This document shows positions 21,415 through 30,884 of a DNA stretch of 64,000 nucleotides, in pieces. The stretch's first letter is position 1. Each line of letters starts with the position of its first letter. The position numbers and the translations under genes are program-made. This DNA comes from Polaribacter huanghezhanensis (GTDB lineage: Bacteria > Bacteroidota > Bacteroidia > Flavobacteriales > Flavobacteriaceae): assembly GCF_030444335.1 (NCBI RefSeq), contig NZ_CP128595.1, positions 2,122,501-2,186,500 on the forward strand. The letters are read 5' to 3'. The notes under the pieces were generated by a model. The model worked only from the letters and a program-made list of their open reading frames with translations, was not told the origin of the DNA and did not search any database.

Positions 21415-24400
21415 TTAGGCTTTTTCTTCTATCTTAAAACTTGCCAATTTATATACCAATGTTGGTAAAACAATTAATAAAAGAGGCAACGCAATAATAA
21501 ATCCACCAACAACCGCAATTGCCAAAGGTTGATGCATTTGTGCGCCAGTTCCGATTCCTAAAGCTAAAGGCATTAATGCAACAATGGCACTAATGGCCGT
21601 CATTAATTTTGGTCGTAATCTTGCAGAAATGGAATAAATAATCGCTTCTTTTTGCCCTCTTTTTTTAATCTCGGCTAAAAATAAGTAGATGGTAAAAATG
21701 GAAGCTTCTCCTAAAATACCAATAATCATAATAATACCTGTGTAACTTCCTACATTTAACGGAGTATTTGTGAAATACAAAGCCAAAACACTTCCAGAAA
21801 TTCCTAAAACACTTACAAAAATCACGATGAATGAAAGCATTAAATTGCGAAACATAAATAAGATTACCGTAAATACCAACAAACCACCAAATATTAAAAT
21901 GAGTAACAATTCGTTAAATGATTTTTGCTGTTCAGCATAAGATCCTCCGTATACTATTTGGTAAGCTGGTGGTAATTGTAGTTGTGCCAGTTCTTTTTTA
22001 ATATCGTGTATTACGCTTCCTAAATCTCTGTTATTAAGACGGGCTGTTACTACGCCCATAGATTGTAAATTTTCTCTTTCGATTTCAGAAACACCTTGTT
22101 TCATAGAAAAATCAGCAAAAATAGCTAGTGGTAAATAAGTACCTGAATTAGTGGCTATTTTGGCTTCTTTAAGTTGTTCAATGGGTATAGTAGCATTATC
22201 AGGATGCAATACTCTAATATTTGTTAACTGTTCTTTTTCTAAAATTGCCCCTGCAATGGTACCATTTAAATAGGTCTGAATTTGTAGTTGTAAATCACTT
22301 GACGACAAACCATATTGTTTTAAAATGCTTTCTTTAGGATGAATGCTTAACATTGGACCCGCAATTATAATTCCATTAAAAACATCTGCGGTACCCTTTA
22401 CATTTTCTACTTTTTTCGCAACTATTTTCGATAATTCTTGTAGTTTTTTATGATCTGTACCAAAAATTTTAATTTCAATAGGTTGCACACTACTCATCAA
22501 ATCTCCTAACATATCTGTAATTACTTGACCAAAATCAACCGTTAATGCTGGAATTGAGCCTTCTACTCGTTTACGAATAATGTCTGTAACTTCAAAAGTG
22601 GTTTTTTTTCTGTTTTTTTTCAATTCTATCAAGTAATCACCTCTGTTTGGCTCTGTAATAAAAAAGCCCATTTGTGTTCCTGTTCTACGTGAATACGCTT
22701 TTACTTCAGGAATCTGATCTAAAATAGCATCTACTTCAGAAAGCATTCTGTCGGTTTCATTTAGTGAAGTTCCTGATGGACTGTTGTAATCTAAAATGAT
22801 AGAACCTTCATCCATTTCTGGCAAAAAGCCTGTTTTTAATTTAGGTAGTACAAAAACAATACTCAAAATTGTTACGAGAATAAAAGCATAAGAAAATAGT
22901 GGTCTTTCAATAAAATAACGCACCCATTTTCGCTCTTTCAAAGGATGTACTTTAATTTCCTTTGGATTTTTTTTAGAAAATAATAAATACACAACTGGCA
23001 GGCCAATCCAAGTAACAACAAAGGAAACGGCCAAAGTAATAATCATTGTTTCGGTTAAAATTTTAAAATATGCTCCTGCAACACCTGTCATTAGTGCAAA
23101 AGGAAAGAAAATTACTATGGTGCTTAAAGAAGAACTTACCATTGCTGGAAATAAAAATTGAATGGCTTTTCCAACCAAAGCTGTTGCTGGTTCTTTTGGG
23201 TTTTCTTCGTGAGTTCTATGGATTTGTTCAACAATAATTACTGCATCATCTATAATTAACCCAATAGCTGCAGCAATAGCTCCAATAGTCATAATATTTA
23301 AATCATAACCCAATGCTTTCATCACTAAAAATGTTAAGCCTAAGGTAATTGGAATGGTTACCAATAAAACACTACTTGCTTTAAAAGAACGTAAAAAAAT
23401 CATCACCACAATAATGGCTAAAACTAAGCCTATCCAAAGAACATCAATAATACTTTTTAAACTAGTACTTACAAAATCTGCTTGGTTGTAATATTTCACC
23501 AATTGTACTCCTTTGGGAAGAATCTTATTTAACTCTTCAATACTTTTTGTTACTTTATCTGCAACATCAATTAAATTGCTATTGGGTTGCTTTAAAACAG
23601 CAATTAATGGTACGTTTTTACCATCTGCATTGATTTTTATGTATTCTGTTTTTTCAGAAATTTGAATCGTCGCAATATCTTTTAAGCTGATTTTACTTTT
23701 TGCATTGTCAAAAATTACTAAATTTTCTAATTGCTTTTTATTATTAATAGTTGCATCGGTAACCGTTAAATACAAACGCTTATAATCAACAGTGTACCCA
23801 TTCGCTTGGATAAATCCTGTTTGCTGAATGGCATTAATAATCTCTTGAGGTTTTATTTTTAAAGTACTTAATTTTTTCTGATCTAAAATGACTTGAAATT
23901 CTTTGGTTTTTCCGCCAATTACTTCAATTGCAGCCACGCCTTCAATTCTTGATAAATACGGTTTTACAATGTACTCGCCAATCATTTTTAATTCTACTTG
24001 ATTCTTTACATCAGATTGAAGCGAATATCCCATTATTGATAAAATGGAAGGATTCATTTTTTCTACAACAATTTGTGTATTTGGAGGTAAACTGTTTTTT
24101 ATTTGGGCAATTCTAGATTCTAACCGCTGCTTATCAATATTGATATCTGAACCCCAATCCATAAAAGCAGAAATCTCACAAGATCCCATGCTGGTAATAC
24201 TGCGAATCAATTTTAAATTTTCTACTCTTTTTATAGCATTTTCTAATGGTTTGGTAACGGTAACCATCATTTTATCAACAGGTTGTTGTCCGTTATCTGC
24301 AATGATTTTTATTTTAGGAAAAGTAACATTCGGAAATAGAGAAGTGCTTAAATTCTTATAAGAATACGCGCCGCCAATCAATATCAATAATAAAATTACG

Positions 24401-24438
24401 GTAATAGGACTTTTATATTTTACAAATATTTTATCCAT
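21415..24438 (-). CDS. RND efflux pump inner-membrane transporter (AcrB-like)
   Basis: 1007-residue RND permease, standard length, with 12 transmembrane helices in two repeats and two large periplasmic loops. Helix 4 carries GLIIDDAVIIVEQ; the adjacent Asp pair is the proton-relay site of the multidrug (HAE) branch rather than the metal (CzcA) branch. It exports substrates with proton antiport, together with the adaptor and TolC-type channel encoded immediately upstream. Two bases separate it from the adaptor gene. The substrate is unknown. A two-component system lies a few kb upstream on the same strand. Confidence 0.93.
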   Translation of the reverse strand: MDKIFVKYKSPITVILLLILIGGAYSYKNLSTSLFPNVTFPKIKIIADNGQQPVDKMMVTVTKPLENAIKRVENLKLIRSITSMGSCEISAFMDWGSDINIDKQRLESRIAQIKNSLPPNTQIVVEKMNPSILSIMGYSLQSDVKNQVELKMIGEYIVKPYLSRIEGVAAIEVIGGKTKEFQVILDQKKLSTLKIKPQEIINAIQQTGFIQANGYTVDYKRLYLTVTDATINNKKQLENLVIFDNAKSKISLKDIATIQISEKTEYIKINADGKNVPLIAVLKQPNSNLIDVADKVTKSIEELNKILPKGVQLVKYYNQADFVSTSLKSIIDVLWIGLVLAIIVVMIFLRSFKASSVLLVTIPITLGLTFLVMKALGYDLNIMTIGAIAAAIGLIIDDAVIIVEQIHRTHEENPKEPATALVGKAIQFLFPAMVSSSLSTIVIFFPFALMTGVAGAYFKILTETMIITLAVSFVVTWIGLPVVYLLFSKKNPKEIKVHPLKERKWVRYFIERPLFSYAFILVTILSIVFVLPKLKTGFLPEMDEGSIILDYNSPSGTSLNETDRMLSEVDAILDQIPEVKAYSRRTGTQMGFFITEPNRGDYLIELKKNRKKTTFEVTDIIRKRVEGSIPALTVDFGQVITDMLGDLMSSVQPIEIKIFGTDHKKLQELSKIVAKKVENVKGTADVFNGIIIAGPMLSIHPKESILKQYGLSSSDLQLQIQTYLNGTIAGAILEKEQLTNIRVLHPDNATIPIEQLKEAKIATNSGTYLPLAIFADFSMKQGVSEIERENLQSMGVVTARLNNRDLGSVIHDIKKELAQLQLPPAYQIVYGGSYAEQQKSFNELLLILIFGGLLVFTVILFMFRNLMLSFIVIFVSVLGISGSVLALYFTNTPLNVGSYTGIIMIIGILGEASIFTIYLFLAEIKKRGQKEAIIYSISARLRPKLMTAISAIVALMPLALGIGTGAQMHQPLAIAVVGGFIIALPLLLIVLPTLVYKLASFKIEEKA

Positions 24439-24440
24439 AA

Positions 24441-25343
24441 TTAATTGATTTTTACTTGTGTGCTATCAGACAATCCATAAGCTCCTTTCACAATAATTTT
24501 GTCTTTTAGGTATAGTTTAGGTGATAAAATTTCAACGTCTTTATTGTTTTCTAATCCTTTTTTGATGTTGATTTTTAATGCTACATTATTTTCAGTCACT
24601 TTCATTATCCAAAATTCATCTTGTGTTTCGTTTGATAAAACGGCTTCTTTGTTGATTAATATCGTCTGATTTCTTTCTAGAATTGGAATCTTAATCAATA
24701 CATTCAAATTTTCTGGTAAAGGAGTAAACTTTTTCAGTTTAAAAAGAATTTGTTGTGTTTGCGAAACAGCATCAACAGTGGGAATTGTTTTATAGAAATA
24801 GGCTGTTTTTTGTTCTTTATTAGGCAATTCTATAGCAATGCTTTTTTGGGTTTGAATTAAAGCACTTAAAGAAAAAGGCGCATTTACTTGAATAGCTAAA
24901 TCCGTGTTTTTTATAATCGTAATCATGTTATTTCCTTCGTTTACAAAAACACCAGAATCGGGAATGCTTTGCGCATTTACATATCCTGTTACTGAGGCAT
25001 ACACAGCAACAATTCCAAAGTTTGAATTTGGTGAAACTTTCGCTTTTTGCAACGCAATGCTTTCTTTAGTCTGAATTTTGTACAACAATTCTCCCTTGGT
25101 TATTTTATCACCAATTTTAGCATTTACCAAGGTTACATACCCTGTTATTGGAGAAGAAATAGTTGTTTTATTTAAAAAAATAATTTGCCCATTTATTTCT
25201 TCGAATTCTTTGATGTCTCCAAGCACAGGATGTGTTATGGTAACTTGTGGAAGTAGTACATTTTTAGTTTCTACGCTAGTTGTTTTTTGTTTACATGATT
25301 GTAAAACGAAGATGAAGATAAAAAGATAAATAAGTTGTTTCAT
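24441..25343 (-). CDS. RND efflux periplasmic adaptor (MFP) lipoprotein
   Basis: 300-residue membrane fusion protein. The N-terminus is a lipoprotein signal with lipobox LQSC. A lipoyl-like hairpin half is visible around TISSPITGYVTLVNAKIGDKITKGELLYKI, followed by a beta-barrel part. It is somewhat short for the family, with almost no helical hairpin between the lipoyl halves. It bridges the RND pump and the outer-membrane channel. It is the second gene of the TolC-adaptor-RND operon. Confidence 0.88.
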   Translation of the reverse strand: MKQLIYLFIFIFVLQSCKQKTTSVETKNVLLPQVTITHPVLGDIKEFEEINGQIIFLNKTTISSPITGYVTLVNAKIGDKITKGELLYKIQTKESIALQKAKVSPNSNFGIVAVYASVTGYVNAQSIPDSGVFVNEGNNMITIIKNTDLAIQVNAPFSLSALIQTQKSIAIELPNKEQKTAYFYKTIPTVDAVSQTQQILFKLKKFTPLPENLNVLIKIPILERNQTILINKEAVLSNETQDEFWIMKVTENNVALKINIKKGLENNKDVEILSPKLYLKDKIIVKGAYGLSDSTQVKIN

Positions 25344-25355
25344 TTTTAATAATTT

Positions 25356-26633
25356 CTAGTTACTCCAATAGTTATAAACATTAATTAATATTTGTTTTGC
25401 TAATTGGATCGTTGTTTTTTTTTGTTTTTTTAGAGCAATTTCTTTAATAATTATTTTTAAATCTAGTACAGAAACCAAGCTTTCTTTTATCTCTACTTGA
25501 TACAAATGCAATAATTTTTGATATTCCTTTAATTGTTGATTTAAAAGAATGATTTGTTTGTCTACGCTTTGTATTTGTTTGATTAAATTATCTTTCCGAA
25601 TGGTATTTTGATTGATAAAATACGCTTTGTCGAATTTTAAATTTTCTAATTTAATTTGATTTTGTTGATGCTTTAATTTTTGTTGATGCCCATCAAACAA
25701 GTTCCAAGTAACAGCCATTCCAACACTAAAACCTAATCGGTTAGGTTTTGGTAAATAAGTAGCATTTAAACCCGCATCACCAAAAGCTTTTACTTGTGGT
25801 ATATATTTTAAATCTGTTATTTTTTGATCAGATTGTATCGCAAAACTATCAATTTGAAATTGTTTCGCGAAAATTGATTTTTCTGAAAAGCGATTAGATA
25901 TTTGTAATTCGATGTCTTCTAAATCAGCAATAGTAGTTGTTTGTATTCCACAAAGTAAATTTAATGCATTTACGTTGTTTTGATAATTGGCGGTAAAACG
26001 TTCTTGGTCTATTTGACTATTTTTTAACGCTAATTCTATCCATTTTAAATCAATATATTTTAAAATTCCTGCAGCAACCAAAGGTTTCATTTCTTTGATT
26101 TGATTTTCAAGAATCTGACTGTTTTCTTTTGCATTTTCTATGCTTTTTTTAGACTGAATGCACAAGATGTATTGGTGAGTAACTGTTTGTTTTAATTCTA
26201 GCTTTGTTAAGGTAATTTGATTGGCATATTTTTGCTTTAAAATGGTTGCCTGATTTTTATACGCTTCTATATATCTCTTTGTAAATAGTGGTTGGTTTAT
26301 TGAAACTAAAGTTTGGTATTGACCTCCATTACTGATTCCTAAATCATACCCATAATAATTAGTAGCGCCATTTGAAACAACTTCTAACTTCGTAGTTCCG
26401 TTATCATTAGAAATAATTGGTGCAAATAATACATTTGCATTCAAATTTACAGTAGGCGATTTATAGATTGCTTTAAATTGTTTTAAATCTAGGTCTATTA
26501 TTTCATGTGTATTCTTTTCTTTTTGCAACAAAGGGCTATTTTCTAGTGCTTTATTCACATAAAAATGTACTGTTTTTTGAGAATATATTTTTAGAGAAAA
26601 AAGGGTTATTACAATTAAGAATAGTTGTTTCAT
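25356..26633 (-). CDS. TolC family outer-membrane channel (RND operon)
   Basis: 425-residue exported protein with a signal peptide ending at IYSQ. Long heptad-like helices rich in Gln, Lys and Leu and two repeated halves match TolC channels. It forms the exit duct of the pump encoded downstream. It is the first gene of the operon, 12 bases before the adaptor gene. A TATATTTG element lies 24 bases upstream. It is clearly distinct from the second TolC protein at 36304. Confidence 0.88.
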   Translation of the reverse strand: MKQLFLIVITLFSLKIYSQKTVHFYVNKALENSPLLQKEKNTHEIIDLDLKQFKAIYKSPTVNLNANVLFAPIISNDNGTTKLEVVSNGATNYYGYDLGISNGGQYQTLVSINQPLFTKRYIEAYKNQATILKQKYANQITLTKLELKQTVTHQYILCIQSKKSIENAKENSQILENQIKEMKPLVAAGILKYIDLKWIELALKNSQIDQERFTANYQNNVNALNLLCGIQTTTIADLEDIELQISNRFSEKSIFAKQFQIDSFAIQSDQKITDLKYIPQVKAFGDAGLNATYLPKPNRLGFSVGMAVTWNLFDGHQQKLKHQQNQIKLENLKFDKAYFINQNTIRKDNLIKQIQSVDKQIILLNQQLKEYQKLLHLYQVEIKESLVSVLDLKIIIKEIALKKQKKTTIQLAKQILINVYNYWSN

Positions 26634-26664: not shown

Positions 26665-26680
26665 GGATATATATGCTAAA

Positions 26681-26705
26681 AAGACAGGCTTAAAAAGTCT
26701 GTCTT
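26681..26705 (-). terminator. intrinsic terminator of the PepSY-like gene
   Basis: A 10-bp stem (26681-26690 and 26696-26705) has one G-T pair and loop TAAAA. On the minus strand it is followed by a T run. It separates the PepSY-like gene from the RND operon. Confidence 0.75.
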
Positions 26706-26728
26706 TATTAATGGAAAACAAAAATTAA

Positions 26729-27214
26729 TTAATTTTCATTATCATTCTCGTTGTCTTTTTCACCGTCTTTATCTTCGTTGTCTTTTTTAACTTCTTTTTT
26801 AACAACAGTTCCGTTAGGTGCAATTGCAACTTCTAAATCAGTATCGTCTTTCTCTAAAGCAAACTCATATACTTTTCCTTTCGCAGTTATAGATACTTCA
26901 GCTTCTTCAATATCATATCCTTTAAATTGTGTGTCTAATGTTCTTTTTACGGCTGCAGGAATTTCTCTTTTCTTAATTGCATATTCAGTTTCTTTCCATG
27001 TTCCATTTGTTAAGAAATTAGCCGAATAGTCTTTTCCATTCATTTTAAATTCTACCTCCCATTCAGTGTCATTTTCTTTATCCCAACTTGCTTTTTTAGC
27101 TTTAGGGAATTTTTTAGCAAAAGCTGCTTTTACGTTAGAAGGAGCTGAAAATTGTGCACAAGCTTGTGTCAATGTCATTATTGCAACAAGCATTAATAAA
27201 CTTAATTTTTTCAT
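26729..27214 (-). CDS. PepSY-like domain protein (secreted or lipoprotein)
   Basis: 161-residue exported protein. The signal ends at LTQAC, so it may be lipidated at Cys19. Two PepSY-like (PF11396 type) repeats are visible, with patterns such as FAKKFPKAKKASWDKEND and FKGYDIEEAEVSI. The tail of about 25 residues is almost only Asp, Glu, Asn and Lys. Such proteins are often encoded beside two-component systems in Bacteroidota; their role is unclear, with ligand binding or protease inhibition proposed for PepSY domains. Its promoter carries the same box as that of the response regulator gene, so it is a likely target of that system. Confidence 0.8.
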   Translation of the reverse strand: MKKLSLLMLVAIMTLTQACAQFSAPSNVKAAFAKKFPKAKKASWDKENDTEWEVEFKMNGKDYSANFLTNGTWKETEYAIKKREIPAAVKRTLDTQFKGYDIEEAEVSITAKGKVYEFALEKDDTDLEVAIAPNGTVVKKEVKKDNEDKDGEKDNENDNEN

Positions 27215-27243: not shown

Positions 27244-27276
27244 CAAATGTAAATCTCGATTTTGAAGAAATTTTGA
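27244..27276 (-). promoter_or_regulatory. PepSY-like gene promoter with shared regulator box
   Basis: On the minus strand the -7 element is TACATTTG (27244-27251). Five bases further upstream begins a box that reads CGATTTTGAAGAAATTTTGA on the plus strand (27257-27276), with TTTTGAA repeated at an 11-base period. The same box sits at the same distance in two neighbouring promoters. Confidence 0.65.
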
Positions 27277-27289
27277 ATTTTGCTTTACT

Positions 27290-28000
27290 TTAAAATGTAT
27301 TTTCTAATACATCAACTAAATCCAAGACCATGTTCGCAAAAATAGCTGCCATTTTTTTGTTTTTTTCTTTTACACTTAAATGTATTCCATCAAACAATAA
27401 ATTAAAAGAAGCTTTTAAATTAGAGTCTTTTACTTCTGTACTTAAACTTTTCCATACTTGTTCTACATTTTTAGTTGTATGCTCAATGTTTTTCCAGTCT
27501 ATCTTTTTTTGATCGATTAGTGCTAGTATTTTAAAACCTAAATAATCTAAGTGTTCAATTTTTATTTGGTTTTCAATTTTAGAAGCGTCTTTAAAATTAC
27601 TTACATTATAATTAAATATTTCTGTAGAAGTAAGTGCTGTTTTTGCGTAATCTCTTTTCTTAAAATACTTTTTAAGTGCTGCTATTTTTTCATTTAAAAC
27701 CATGATGCTTTCTGGTTTTAAATGATCTGTAAACACATTGTTTTTTGCAGTGTTATCTATTTTAGATAATGATTTTTGAATTCCTTTGTCATTTTTTGCA
27801 AGTGCAAATTCTGTTAAATCTTCAAAAGGAGAAAGAGCTTGATCTAAGTTTTCGAATATCACATCAGATTCGGTAATTTTAGCACTCTCCTTTTTTTCTG
27901 AAATAGTTTCTTTTACGATTTCCTTTTTAGATACTTTTTCTGTACAAGCTTGTGATAAAGCCATCACAAAGACAAGCATTACTATACTAACTTTTTTCAT
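27290..28000 (-). CDS. lipoprotein of unknown function
   Basis: 236-residue lipoprotein. The leader MKKVSIVMLVFVMALSQAC is close to that of the PepSY-like protein next door, with lipobox SQAC. The rest is helical and rich in Lys, Asn and Glu. I recognise no domain or catalytic motif. It follows the PAP2 gene on the same strand but has its own promoter with the shared box, so it probably belongs to the two-component regulon. It might be an accessory or envelope-stress lipoprotein; this is inference only. Confidence 0.65.
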   Translation of the reverse strand: MKKVSIVMLVFVMALSQACTEKVSKKEIVKETISEKKESAKITESDVIFENLDQALSPFEDLTEFALAKNDKGIQKSLSKIDNTAKNNVFTDHLKPESIMVLNEKIAALKKYFKKRDYAKTALTSTEIFNYNVSNFKDASKIENQIKIEHLDYLGFKILALIDQKKIDWKNIEHTTKNVEQVWKSLSTEVKDSNLKASFNLLFDGIHLSVKEKNKKMAAIFANMVLDLVDVLENTF

Positions 28001-28027
28001 TTTATAATTAATTTATAATTTATTAGA

Positions 28028-28060
28028 CAAAAGTAGCAGCCGATTTTGAATTAATTTAGA
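28028..28060 (-). promoter_or_regulatory. lipoprotein gene promoter with shared regulator box
   Basis: On the minus strand the -7 element is TACTTTTG (28028-28035). The box CGATTTTGAATTAATTTAGA (plus-strand reading, 28041-28060) starts five bases beyond it. It differs at two positions from the box at 30774-30793 and shares 16 contiguous bases with it. Confidence 0.7.
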
Positions 28061-28065
28061 ACTTT

Positions 28066-28806
28066 TTAAAAACTATAAGAAAAATACACCCCATAATTAT
28101 CATCATTAATTTCAGGGATTAACGTTATATTTTTTGTCTTCTTAAAAGGGTTAAAGTTTTTAAATGGTTCAAAATGATATACTAATTTTGTTACTAAAAT
28201 TCCGATACCAGCACCCACCAAAACATCCGAAAACCAATGTTTATTATTGATCATTCTAAACGCTCCTGTTGTAGTTGCAAAAGCATAACCGCTATAAGCT
28301 AATACAGGTGAAGTTTCTTTAAATTCTTGATACAATACGGTTGCGTTTGTAAAACCAAAAGTGGTGTGTCCTGAAGGGAATGATCGATATCCTCTTCCGT
28401 TTGGCCTCATCTTTCCTGTAAGTTTTTTTAAGAAAAAAGTAATTGTAGAAGATGCTATATTAGATATGAATAGATTTTTGGTTTGATCAAACCAATGATT
28501 TTTTGCTTTCACTCCTAAAATATCTGCTCCATATAATTCGAAAATAGGAGCAAACTGTAAATAATCATCTATTTTAAATTCATAATTATTTCCAACTTTA
28601 TTTCGAATATCTGTTTGCAAGCTTTTCTCAAAACTACTTTTATTAACAATTATGCCAATACTAATAAGACTAAGAGGGACAATACTTTTTTTTAGTAAAC
28701 TATTTTTCTTAATACTATCATTAATATTAAAAGGAGTTTGTGCATGCAATTTTCCTAAATGACTAAAACAAAAAATTAGAATAAGTAATTTAAAAATGTT
28801 TTTCAT
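28066..28806 (-). CDS. PAP2 superfamily phosphatase
   Basis: 246-residue membrane-associated phosphatase with a signal peptide ending at LHAQ. The three PAP2 motifs are present: K127-x6-R134-P135, PSGH at 144-147, and R184-x5-H190-x3-D194. The last stretch is mainly hydrophobic helices. Family enzymes dephosphorylate lipid phosphates such as undecaprenyl pyrophosphate, phosphatidate or lipid A groups at the periplasmic face. It is the third gene of the two-component operon, eight bases after the kinase gene, so it is likely an envelope-remodelling output of that system. Confidence 0.9.
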   Translation of the reverse strand: MKNIFKLLILIFCFSHLGKLHAQTPFNINDSIKKNSLLKKSIVPLSLISIGIIVNKSSFEKSLQTDIRNKVGNNYEFKIDDYLQFAPIFELYGADILGVKAKNHWFDQTKNLFISNIASSTITFFLKKLTGKMRPNGRGYRSFPSGHTTFGFTNATVLYQEFKETSPVLAYSGYAFATTTGAFRMINNKHWFSDVLVGAGIGILVTKLVYHFEPFKNFNPFKKTKNITLIPEINDDNYGVYFSYSF

Positions 28807-28814
28807 TATCGATT

Positions 28815-30086
28815 TTAATTTATAAAATGAATAGCAAAAATATGATTAGCACCCTGAAAATAATACGTAATTTTCCAGTTTTGAGAATCTATTATTTTTT
28901 TAACAATAGCAAGCCCTAATCCATTTCCGGATTGTGAATCTGAAGATTTAGAAAAACGGACAAAAAGTTTTTCGCTAAAGAGTTTTGTATTTGAGCTGGT
29001 ATTAGAAATGATTAATTTGTCCTTTCTTAGTTCAATATGTACTTCACCATCTTGATGATTATGGCGTATCGCATTTAATAGTAAATTTCTTATCAGTACT
29101 TCTGTAAGTGTTAAATTAGCGGTTAAACTGCAATTATCAATAGCGCTAATAGCAATCTTAATATTTTTAGATTTGGCTTGCTCTCTAAAAAACGGAAGTT
29201 GTTTTTCTACGATTTCATTTATAGAAATCATTTCTTGTTTGTTTGGCTGATTGCCATCTATTTTAGACAGTAAAAGGAGGTTTTTATTGAGTTTATTGAG
29301 ACGAGAAACAGTATCGCTGATGTCATTTAATAAGAGGTATTGTTTTTTGCTAATATCTTTATCTTGAATTAGCATGTCTAACTTCGCTTTAAAAATAGCA
29401 ATTGGAGTTTGTAATTCGTGAGCAGCATTTTCTACAAATTCTCGTTGATTGTTGTAAATACTGATGTTTCTTTTTATCAAATTGTCAATAGACTCATTTA
29501 ATCGATTAAACTCTTCAATAGTGCATGTATCTAAGGAGTATTTTTTTGGATGATCAAGTTCAAAGGCTTCTATTTCTTCTAAAGTTTTGTAAAAAGGTTT
29601 CCAAAGGTTTATAGAGATTTTTCTTGTTAAAAAAATCAAGCCAATCAATAAAATAACAAACAACACTAAAAATAATAAGAGAATGCTGGTAAGTAAATCA
29701 CCAGATTCAAATAAGCTTATTTTGGTTGAAAAGATAAAGGGCTTTTTATTGATGTAAACAACCGAATTTAATTCTCTGTATGGTTCGTTTTCTAATTCTA
29801 ATTTGCTAAAATATTCACTATAAAATAACGTGTCTTTTTTTAAAGGATAATACTCTTTTATTTTAGATGTTAGGTTAAAACGATTCCATGTTTTTATTGT
29901 TTCTTCGGATAAGTTTGGTGCTATTTTTTCTAAAAAATCTGCTTTATATCCTAATAAAGTTTCATCAATGTTTTTTAAATACATTTTTTCTGAGACTAAA
30001 TAAAAAATAGGGGCAACGATGATAAAGGTTACAATAGCAAATATTAAATAAATGCGTTGTGTTTTATGTAATAACTTCTTACTCAT
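28815..30086 (-). CDS. sensor histidine kinase
   Basis: 423-residue membrane kinase. Transmembrane helices lie at about 12-31 and 131-153 and frame a periplasmic sensor part of about 100 residues with no known domain. The phosphoacceptor His223 sits in AAHELQTPIA. The ATPase domain has the G box SGNGLGLAIVKKI. It phosphorylates the response regulator encoded just upstream, whose gene overlaps it by eight bases. The stimulus is unknown; the PAP2, lipoprotein and PepSY neighbours point to the cell envelope. Confidence 0.92.
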   Translation of the reverse strand: MSKKLLHKTQRIYLIFAIVTFIIVAPIFYLVSEKMYLKNIDETLLGYKADFLEKIAPNLSEETIKTWNRFNLTSKIKEYYPLKKDTLFYSEYFSKLELENEPYRELNSVVYINKKPFIFSTKISLFESGDLLTSILLLFLVLFVILLIGLIFLTRKISINLWKPFYKTLEEIEAFELDHPKKYSLDTCTIEEFNRLNESIDNLIKRNISIYNNQREFVENAAHELQTPIAIFKAKLDMLIQDKDISKKQYLLLNDISDTVSRLNKLNKNLLLLSKIDGNQPNKQEMISINEIVEKQLPFFREQAKSKNIKIAISAIDNCSLTANLTLTEVLIRNLLLNAIRHNHQDGEVHIELRKDKLIISNTSSNTKLFSEKLFVRFSKSSDSQSGNGLGLAIVKKIIDSQNWKITYYFQGANHIFAIHFIN

Positions 30087-30756
30087 CTTGCCATTTATAT
30101 CCTAAACCATATACCGATTTAATGTAGTTTTTACTTTTTGCGTAGGTTAATTTCTTTTTTAAATTTTTGATATGTGCATACACAAAATCATGATTGTCTA
30201 ACATGTCAGCCATATCTCCAGAAAGATGCTCTGCAATTGCGCCTTTAGACAAAACTTTGTTCTTGTTTCCAATTAAGTACAACAACAAATCTATTTCTTT
30301 TTTAGTGATATCAACTTTTTGATCATTAATTTTTACAACTTTAGAGAGTACGTCAATTTCTATCTCATTAAAGCTAATAGTATTACTTCCATTGAATTGT
30401 TTACGTCTAATTATTGCCTGAATTCTTACTAATAATTCTGATAAATGAAAAGGTTTGGTTAAATAATCATCTGCACCAAGATTGAACCCTTCAATTCTAG
30501 TTTCTATGGTTTCTTTTGCAGAAATAATAATAACACCATCTGTTTTATGTTGTTTTTTAAGCTCAATTAATATATCAAACCCATCACCATCAGGTAGTGT
30601 TAAATCCAATAAAATACAATCGTAATCAAATAGTGCTATTTTTTCTATAGCAGAAGAAAAATCATTTGCCCATTCGCATAAAAATCCACTAGCATTTAAG
30701 TACTCTTGAATACTTTTTGCCAATTTCACTTCATCTTCTATAAGTAATAATTTCAT
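30079..30756 (-). CDS. OmpR/PhoB family response regulator
   Basis: 225-residue regulator. The receiver domain has Glu8-Asp9, phospho-acceptor Asp51 in LLDLTLPDGDG and Lys101 in LTKPF. The C-terminal winged helix ends in YIKSVYGLGYKW, the normal OmpR-family ending. Length is standard. It is the first gene of the RR-HK-PAP2 operon. A box shared with two downstream promoters lies in its own promoter, suggesting autoregulation and a small local regulon. Confidence 0.94.
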   Translation of the reverse strand: MKLLLIEDEVKLAKSIQEYLNASGFLCEWANDFSSAIEKIALFDYDCILLDLTLPDGDGFDILIELKKQHKTDGVIIISAKETIETRIEGFNLGADDYLTKPFHLSELLVRIQAIIRRKQFNGSNTISFNEIEIDVLSKVVKINDQKVDITKKEIDLLLYLIGNKNKVLSKGAIAEHLSGDMADMLDNHDFVYAHIKNLKKKLTYAKSKNYIKSVYGLGYKWQDE

Positions 30757-30760
30757 TTTA

Positions 30761-30821
30761 CAATAGTACTATACAAATTTGAATTAATTTAGATTTTCAC
30801 TCTAATATATCAAATTTGAAT
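30761..30821 (-). promoter_or_regulatory. two-component operon promoter with shared box and repeat
   Basis: On the minus strand the -7 element reads TACTATTG (30761-30768, one mismatch). Five bases beyond it lies the box CAAATTTGAATTAATTTAGA (plus-strand reading, 30774-30793). CAAATTTGAAT recurs at 30811-30821, so two sites 37 bases apart are possible. The placement suits an activating OmpR-type regulator. Confidence 0.6.
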
Positions 30822-30884
30822 GAATAGAATTTTTAAACGCATTTTTTTTACTTACAAAACTAGCAGGTTTACGCAAGAAAAAGA

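Follow-up and report, generated by a model that had tools for sequence, protein, structure and literature searches.

A tandem-repeat box as the probable operator of an OmpR-type response regulator encoded with a PorY-family kinase in Polaribacter huanghezhanensis

The window analysed here is a 64-kb stretch of the Polaribacter huanghezhanensis genome (C1:2122501-2186500 of a 2.59-Mb single-contig genome), and it encodes a two-component system (TCS) made up of an OmpR/PhoB-family response regulator (RR) and a PorY-family sensor histidine kinase (HK). Three promoters at this locus, which precede the RR gene, a lipoprotein gene and a gene for a PepSY-like periplasmic protein, carry a common box. 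This box is very likely the operator of the RR encoded at window positions 30079-30756, through which the RR would activate the genes for itself, the HK and a PAP2-superfamily phosphatase, as well as the lipoprotein and PepSY-like genes. Oriented with transcription, it consists of tandem 8-bp half-sites with an 11-bp period (TTCwAAAT-N3-TTCwAAAT), represented in the window by two TTCNAAAT copies exactly 11 bp apart (TTCNAAAT-N3-TTCNAAAT), and the downstream half-site ends 7 nt before a TAnnTTTG-type -7 element in all three promoters. A preliminary description of this DNA had noted TTTGAA-like repeats at about 11 bases, which we could resolve into these half-sites, and an identical distance between box and -7 element, which holds to the base, with exactly five bases intervening in each case (Table 1). 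The 16 contiguous bases that it reported as common to two boxes were likewise recovered, as TTTGAATTAATTTAGA is found exactly twice in the window (28045 and 30778). A further half-site-like sequence, TTCAAATTTG, lies at 30811-30836, 37 bp upstream of the RR box and outside any 11-bp pair. A scan for sigma-70-type promoters was uninformative, as expected for Bacteroidota.

As a set, the boxes exceed chance matches when scored with a 21-column matrix, which was built from 75 boxes upstream of RR genes in other genomes and includes no sequence of the window. The sites of the PepSY-like, lipoprotein and RR genes score 29.3, 23.3 and 14.9 bits and take the first three ranks when both strands of the window are scanned, followed by a site at 12.0 bits. 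The best match in 60 Markov-random windows averaged 13.0 bits (sd 2.6, maximum 20.5). The genome-wide search relied on mismatch patterns rather than on a matrix scan. With box and -7 element required together at no more than one mismatch, we found the three window sites and one weak other before a rimO-like gene. At two mismatches, the box alone yielded 76 matches versus 48 for the reversed pattern, which is near background; within this genome the pattern is specific only together with the -7 element or at zero to one mismatch. Two candidates were not counted as members, namely the site at the rimO-like gene (C1:2492858), which is the fourth best of the genome and has two mismatches in its box, and a site inside a coding frame (C1:1525231).

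Further support comes from the conservation of the box, which was counted at no more than two mismatches among RR orthologues on 80 contigs (about 61-77% identity) and in Flavobacteriales genomes. A preset test asked whether orthologous loci keep the box, and they do: the 200 bp in front of the RR gene contain it in 86 of 99 Bacteroidota loci, compared with a single occurrence of the reversed pattern. It also recurs before neighbouring genes of several classes, including PepSY-like (19/28), sulfatase/LtaS-like (19/22), OMP_b-brl_3 (15/50), TauE (8/11), DUF347 (8/16) and PAP2 genes (7/27), and the reversed control gave zero for each of them. Box and -7 element are separated by 7 or 8 nt in almost all promoters, irrespective of gene class, and the position of the box before the RR gene is thus kept over a large part of the phylum. 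The TCS is present in Flavobacterium, Chryseobacterium, Elizabethkingia, Sphingobacterium and Chitinophagaceae.

The presence of the motif also follows that of the RR. In a set of 248 Flavobacteriales genomes, its strict form TTCWAAATNNNTTCWAAAT was found in 27 of 32 RR-positive versus 37 of 216 RR-negative genomes (Fisher p 7e-14). The concern that it might be just as frequent elsewhere is therefore not borne out, since the best matches in the window's own genome are the three boxes and the motif tracks the RR across Flavobacteriales. By our tally, 50 of the 62 matches that RR-positive genomes contain are no more than about 5 kb away from the RR gene, so that the regulon is a local one. The promoters of 62 more distant RRs (<57% identity) have diverged in sequence but retain a repeat with an 11-bp lag, whose peak falls exactly at -39/-40 relative to the ATG (3.56 of 8 matches versus about 2.3). 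At this position, distant RR promoters (L144 to L245) often carry an altered half-site such as TWCAGAWT, for example in L165 (TACAGATTTCGTACAGATT). The recognition helix differs as well: regulators with the box carry N188-H189, A194 and K200, whereas those without it carry S-F, S/T and R, which agrees with an RR that would read the box. The proposal of a small activator-dependent regulon comprising kinase, regulator, PAP2 phosphatase, lipoprotein and PepSY-like protein is thus well supported by conservation and co-occurrence with the RR, and we infer binding and activation by the RR.

We weighed two explanations in which the motif owes nothing to regulation by this RR. It could be an alternative-sigma or extended promoter element, as its fixed distance from the -7 element would allow and as the AT-rich motifs at -18 and -28 of general Flavobacterium johnsoniae promoters might suggest (PMC6847099). 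This is very improbable, however. The motif is a tandem repeat of 11-bp period in which the C positions hardly vary (74/75 and 75/75 of the matrix sequences), its presence goes with one particular RR gene and the genes around it, and it is near background in RR-negative genomes. The conservation could instead reflect mere shared descent of recently transferred DNA. The RR gene is indeed patchy: the sampled congeners hold no close orthologue and only four of them hold relatives of about 50% identity, while genes 72-77% identical occur in Flavobacterium, Chitinophagaceae and Yeosuana. Such patchiness points to either horizontal transfer or repeated loss. Yet the loci come from several families, with RR identities of about 58-77%, and within a single genome the box stands in front of genes that are not homologous, making shared descent the most remote of the explanations we considered.

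Other observations do weigh against an activating operator. The RR box of the window is the weakest of the three and not significant by score alone, so that its significance comes from its position. Some RR promoters have no good box at up to two mismatches, and in a Yeosuana locus (L036) whose RR is among the nearest in the tree, boxes were found only at the PAP2 and PepSY genes. The covariation of recognition helix and box is confounded with phylogeny. Finally, the box overlaps the -33 region, which would also fit repression by occlusion. The RR might accordingly bind the boxes as a repressor or dual regulator that occludes the promoters until a signal arrives, and these promoters could work unaided, given that many mapped F. 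johnsoniae promoters have no strong -33 motif (PMC6847099). For the same reason, the missing -33 TTG that the preliminary description had linked to an activator carries little weight in that argument. Against repression, these promoters have no conserved -33 element, and the box stops 7-8 nt short of the -7 element in every gene class. Such a fixed helical spacing would be expected of a regulator that contacts polymerase, but occlusion does not call for it. We therefore consider a repressor or dual regulator unlikely.

As an activator, the RR would function as follows. The PorY-family kinase would phosphorylate the RR encoded in front of its gene, and the phosphorylated RR would bind TTCwAAAT-N3-TTCwAAAT head-to-tail as a dimer. 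The site begins 26-27 bp upstream of the -7 element and spans the expected position of a -33 element, and the RR would recruit housekeeping RNA polymerase by class-II activation, as PmrA or PhoB do. The predicted outcome is that the RR, HK and PAP2 genes are positively autoregulated and that the genes for the lipoprotein and the PepSY-like protein are activated as well. In the periplasm, the PepSY-like protein probably exerts feedback on the kinase, and the outputs would alter the envelope through PAP2 and, in relatives, through sulfatase-fold LtaS/MdoB-like enzymes, outer-membrane (OMP) barrels and transporters. That the signal is itself one of envelope stress is a guess drawn from these targets.

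The RR promoter differs from those of its targets in the distance from the -7 element to the start codon. This distance is exactly 4 nt in 53 of 74 RR promoters, as in the window, and 3-5 nt in 62 of them; as the gap between box and -7 element changes from 7 to 8 nt, the box shifts along and the distance to the ATG stays constant. A count made independently of the box gave a -7 element ending 3-5 nt before the ATG in 62 of 96 RR genes versus 18 of 686 other open reading frames (ORFs). Target genes mostly begin 17-42 nt after the -7 element (27 and 29 nt for the lipoprotein and PepSY-like genes of the window), with some DUF347 genes at 9-11 nt. In F. johnsoniae, the -7 element lies 4 or 5 nt before the transcription start site (PMC6847099), and the matching spacing here predicts that transcription of the RR gene starts at the ATG itself, which would make the message leaderless.

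We also examined which family the kinase belongs to. Over residues 4-421 the HK matches the NCBIfam model NF052314 ('PorY family sensor histidine kinase') with 421.8 bits (cut-off 350), and it is the sole PorY-family kinase of this genome at E 1e-60. An OmpR-type RR gene lies directly upstream on the same strand in 69 of 70 PorY-family kinases from 197 Bacteroidia genomes, and the one exception sits at a contig end; large RR-HK 'gaps' in the neighbourhood listing are alignments that begin inside the kinase. The RR and kinase genes are separated by a gene for a 23S_rRNA_IVP (four-helix) protein in several Chryseobacterium-type loci (e.g., L068:6714-7070). A fold model of the HK (mean pLDDT 83, pTM 0.50) gave PDB matches to kinase cores only, which left the sensor domain uninformative about the signal.

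This arrangement differs from that of Porphyromonas gingivalis, where PorY is unlinked to porX, has been called an orphan and was paired experimentally with PorX, a type IX secretion system (T9SS) regulator without a classical DNA-binding domain (PMC5005315, PMC11320123). Published work reports that porX deletion abolishes T9SS function and porY deletion does not (PMC11320123). The kinase of the window shares the NF052314 family, and a PorX-like protein (receiver plus PglZ, in a 523-codon frame) is encoded separately in the genome, but here the kinase gene overlaps that of an OmpR-type, DNA-binding RR and forms an operon with it. We tentatively propose, as a possibility that we lean slightly against, that across Bacteroidota the primary, ancestral partner of PorY-family kinases is not PorX but this OmpR-type RR, which has an operator of its own and an autoregulated message without a leader. 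On this view, the 'orphan' PorY of P. gingivalis would be a kinase whose partner has been lost, and it would have come to pair with PorX secondarily or through cross-talk. That P. gingivalis PorY falls in the same clade is our hypothesis, suggested by family name and published topology only. We found no description of a pairing between PorY and OmpR-type RRs in the open-access literature searched.

Two kinds of known system offer comparisons. PmrA (BasR), which together with PmrB forms a system for lipid A modification, is an OmpR/PhoB-family RR whose binding site consists of two head-to-tail half-sites with an 11-bp spacing (PMC3973317), and BasR/PmrA is among the nearest solved full-length relatives of our RR. 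The likeness extends to the predicted binding of tandem head-to-tail half-sites at an 11-bp period and to envelope-modifying neighbours (here PAP2 and sulfatase-fold transferase-like genes). However, the half-site here is TTCwAAAT and not CTTAAT/CTTAAG, with no CTTAAT-N5-CTTAAT arrangement, the promoter is of the Bacteroidota -7 type, and the RR scores 153 bits against the cut-off of 330 for the NCBIfam PmrA equivalog. Modules that join a PepSY protein to a TCS are known from DbfQRS of Vibrio cholerae and BqsRS of Pseudomonas aeruginosa; in V. cholerae, DbfQ restrains DbfS and membrane damage activates the system (PMC12714742), and the PepSY-like protein of the window may act on its kinase as DbfQ does on DbfS. 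Like these modules, our locus places a small secreted PepSY-type protein next to an OmpR-type TCS, with an envelope theme and a promoter that appears autoregulated, and a PF11396 protein was found in 28 related loci, 19 of them boxed. The domain is PepSY_like (PF11396) rather than the PepSY Pfam domain, and the gene lies 3' of the kinase gene with a boxed promoter of its own. Bacteroidota are unmentioned in the main text of that paper (PMC12714742).

Table 1. Features of the locus, with positions in the 64-kb window
Feature	Position	Strand	Details
RR-operon operator box	30774-30794	-	ATCTAAATTAATTCAAATTTG; two half-sites; promoter ATCTAAATTAATTCAAATTTG-TATAG-TACTATTG
RR-operon -7 element	30761-30768	-	TACTATTG; last G 4 nt before the RR ATG
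Lipoprotein-gene operator box	28041-28061	-	TTCTAAATTAATTCAAAATCG; promoter TTCTAAATTAATTCAAAATCG-GCTGC-TACTTTTG
Lipoprotein-gene -7 element	28028-28035	-	TACTTTTG; 27 nt before ATG
PepSY-like-gene operator box	27257-27277	-	TTCAAAATTTCTTCAAAATCG; promoter TTCAAAATTTCTTCAAAATCG-AGATT-TACATTTG
PepSY-like-gene -7 element	27244-27251	-	TACATTTG; 29 nt before ATG
OmpR/PhoB-family RR, 225 aa	30079-30756	-	REC (PF00072, 9.4e-25) and winged-helix Trans_reg_C (PF00486, 2.1e-15)
Sensor HK, PorY family	28815-30086	-	NF052314; start overlaps the end of the RR gene
PAP2-superfamily phosphatase	28066-28806	-	8 bp behind the HK gene
Lipoprotein, 236 aa	27290-28000	-	no Pfam or NCBIfam match
PepSY-like periplasmic protein	26729-27214	-	PF11396
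Hairpin	26675-26708	-	AAAGACAGACTTTTTAAGCCTGTCTTTTT; between PepSY-like and TolC genes; -9.3 kcal/mol, z -2.7
TolC / membrane-fusion / RND efflux operon	21415-26633	-	own box-less -7 element TATATTTG

Every gene concerned, from the RR to the RND operon, lies on the minus strand. The receiver and winged-helix domains place the RR in the OmpR/PhoB family, and the PAP2 gene is probably on the same transcript as the kinase gene. The box-controlled lipoprotein is an ORFan, with no relatives among 250 other genomes of the family. The RND operon had been described as lacking the box, and this holds: a hairpin, which is a probable terminator or attenuator, and the TATATTTG -7 element stand in front of it without a box. 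The operon is nevertheless probably linked to the system in function, because the order PepSY, TolC, membrane-fusion protein (MFP) and RND recurs in about ten distant relatives (e.g., L045), some with one extra gene between. RND operons in relatives are seldom boxed (2 of 10 TolC genes).

We conclude that this site is very probably a switch by which a PorY-family kinase and its RR turn on themselves and a few neighbouring envelope genes. Such an OmpR-type autoregulated regulon is real and ordinary in principle, with binding and activation as the inferred part; within the open-access literature searched, in which we found no description of the box, it has not been described before. Two points go beyond the preliminary description and deserve follow-up, namely the OmpR-type partner of a PorY-family kinase and the predicted leaderless RR message. 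Few operators of Bacteroidota response regulators are known, and this one comes with a concrete sequence, a -7 spacing and a list of targets, which make binding, regulon and signal directly testable. A leaderless, autoactivated RR message, as predicted here, would be unusual where leaderless transcripts make up only 5.5% of mapped mRNAs, as in Flavobacterium psychrophilum (PMC9723704). The system also bears on the question of which regulator PorY-type kinases really serve.

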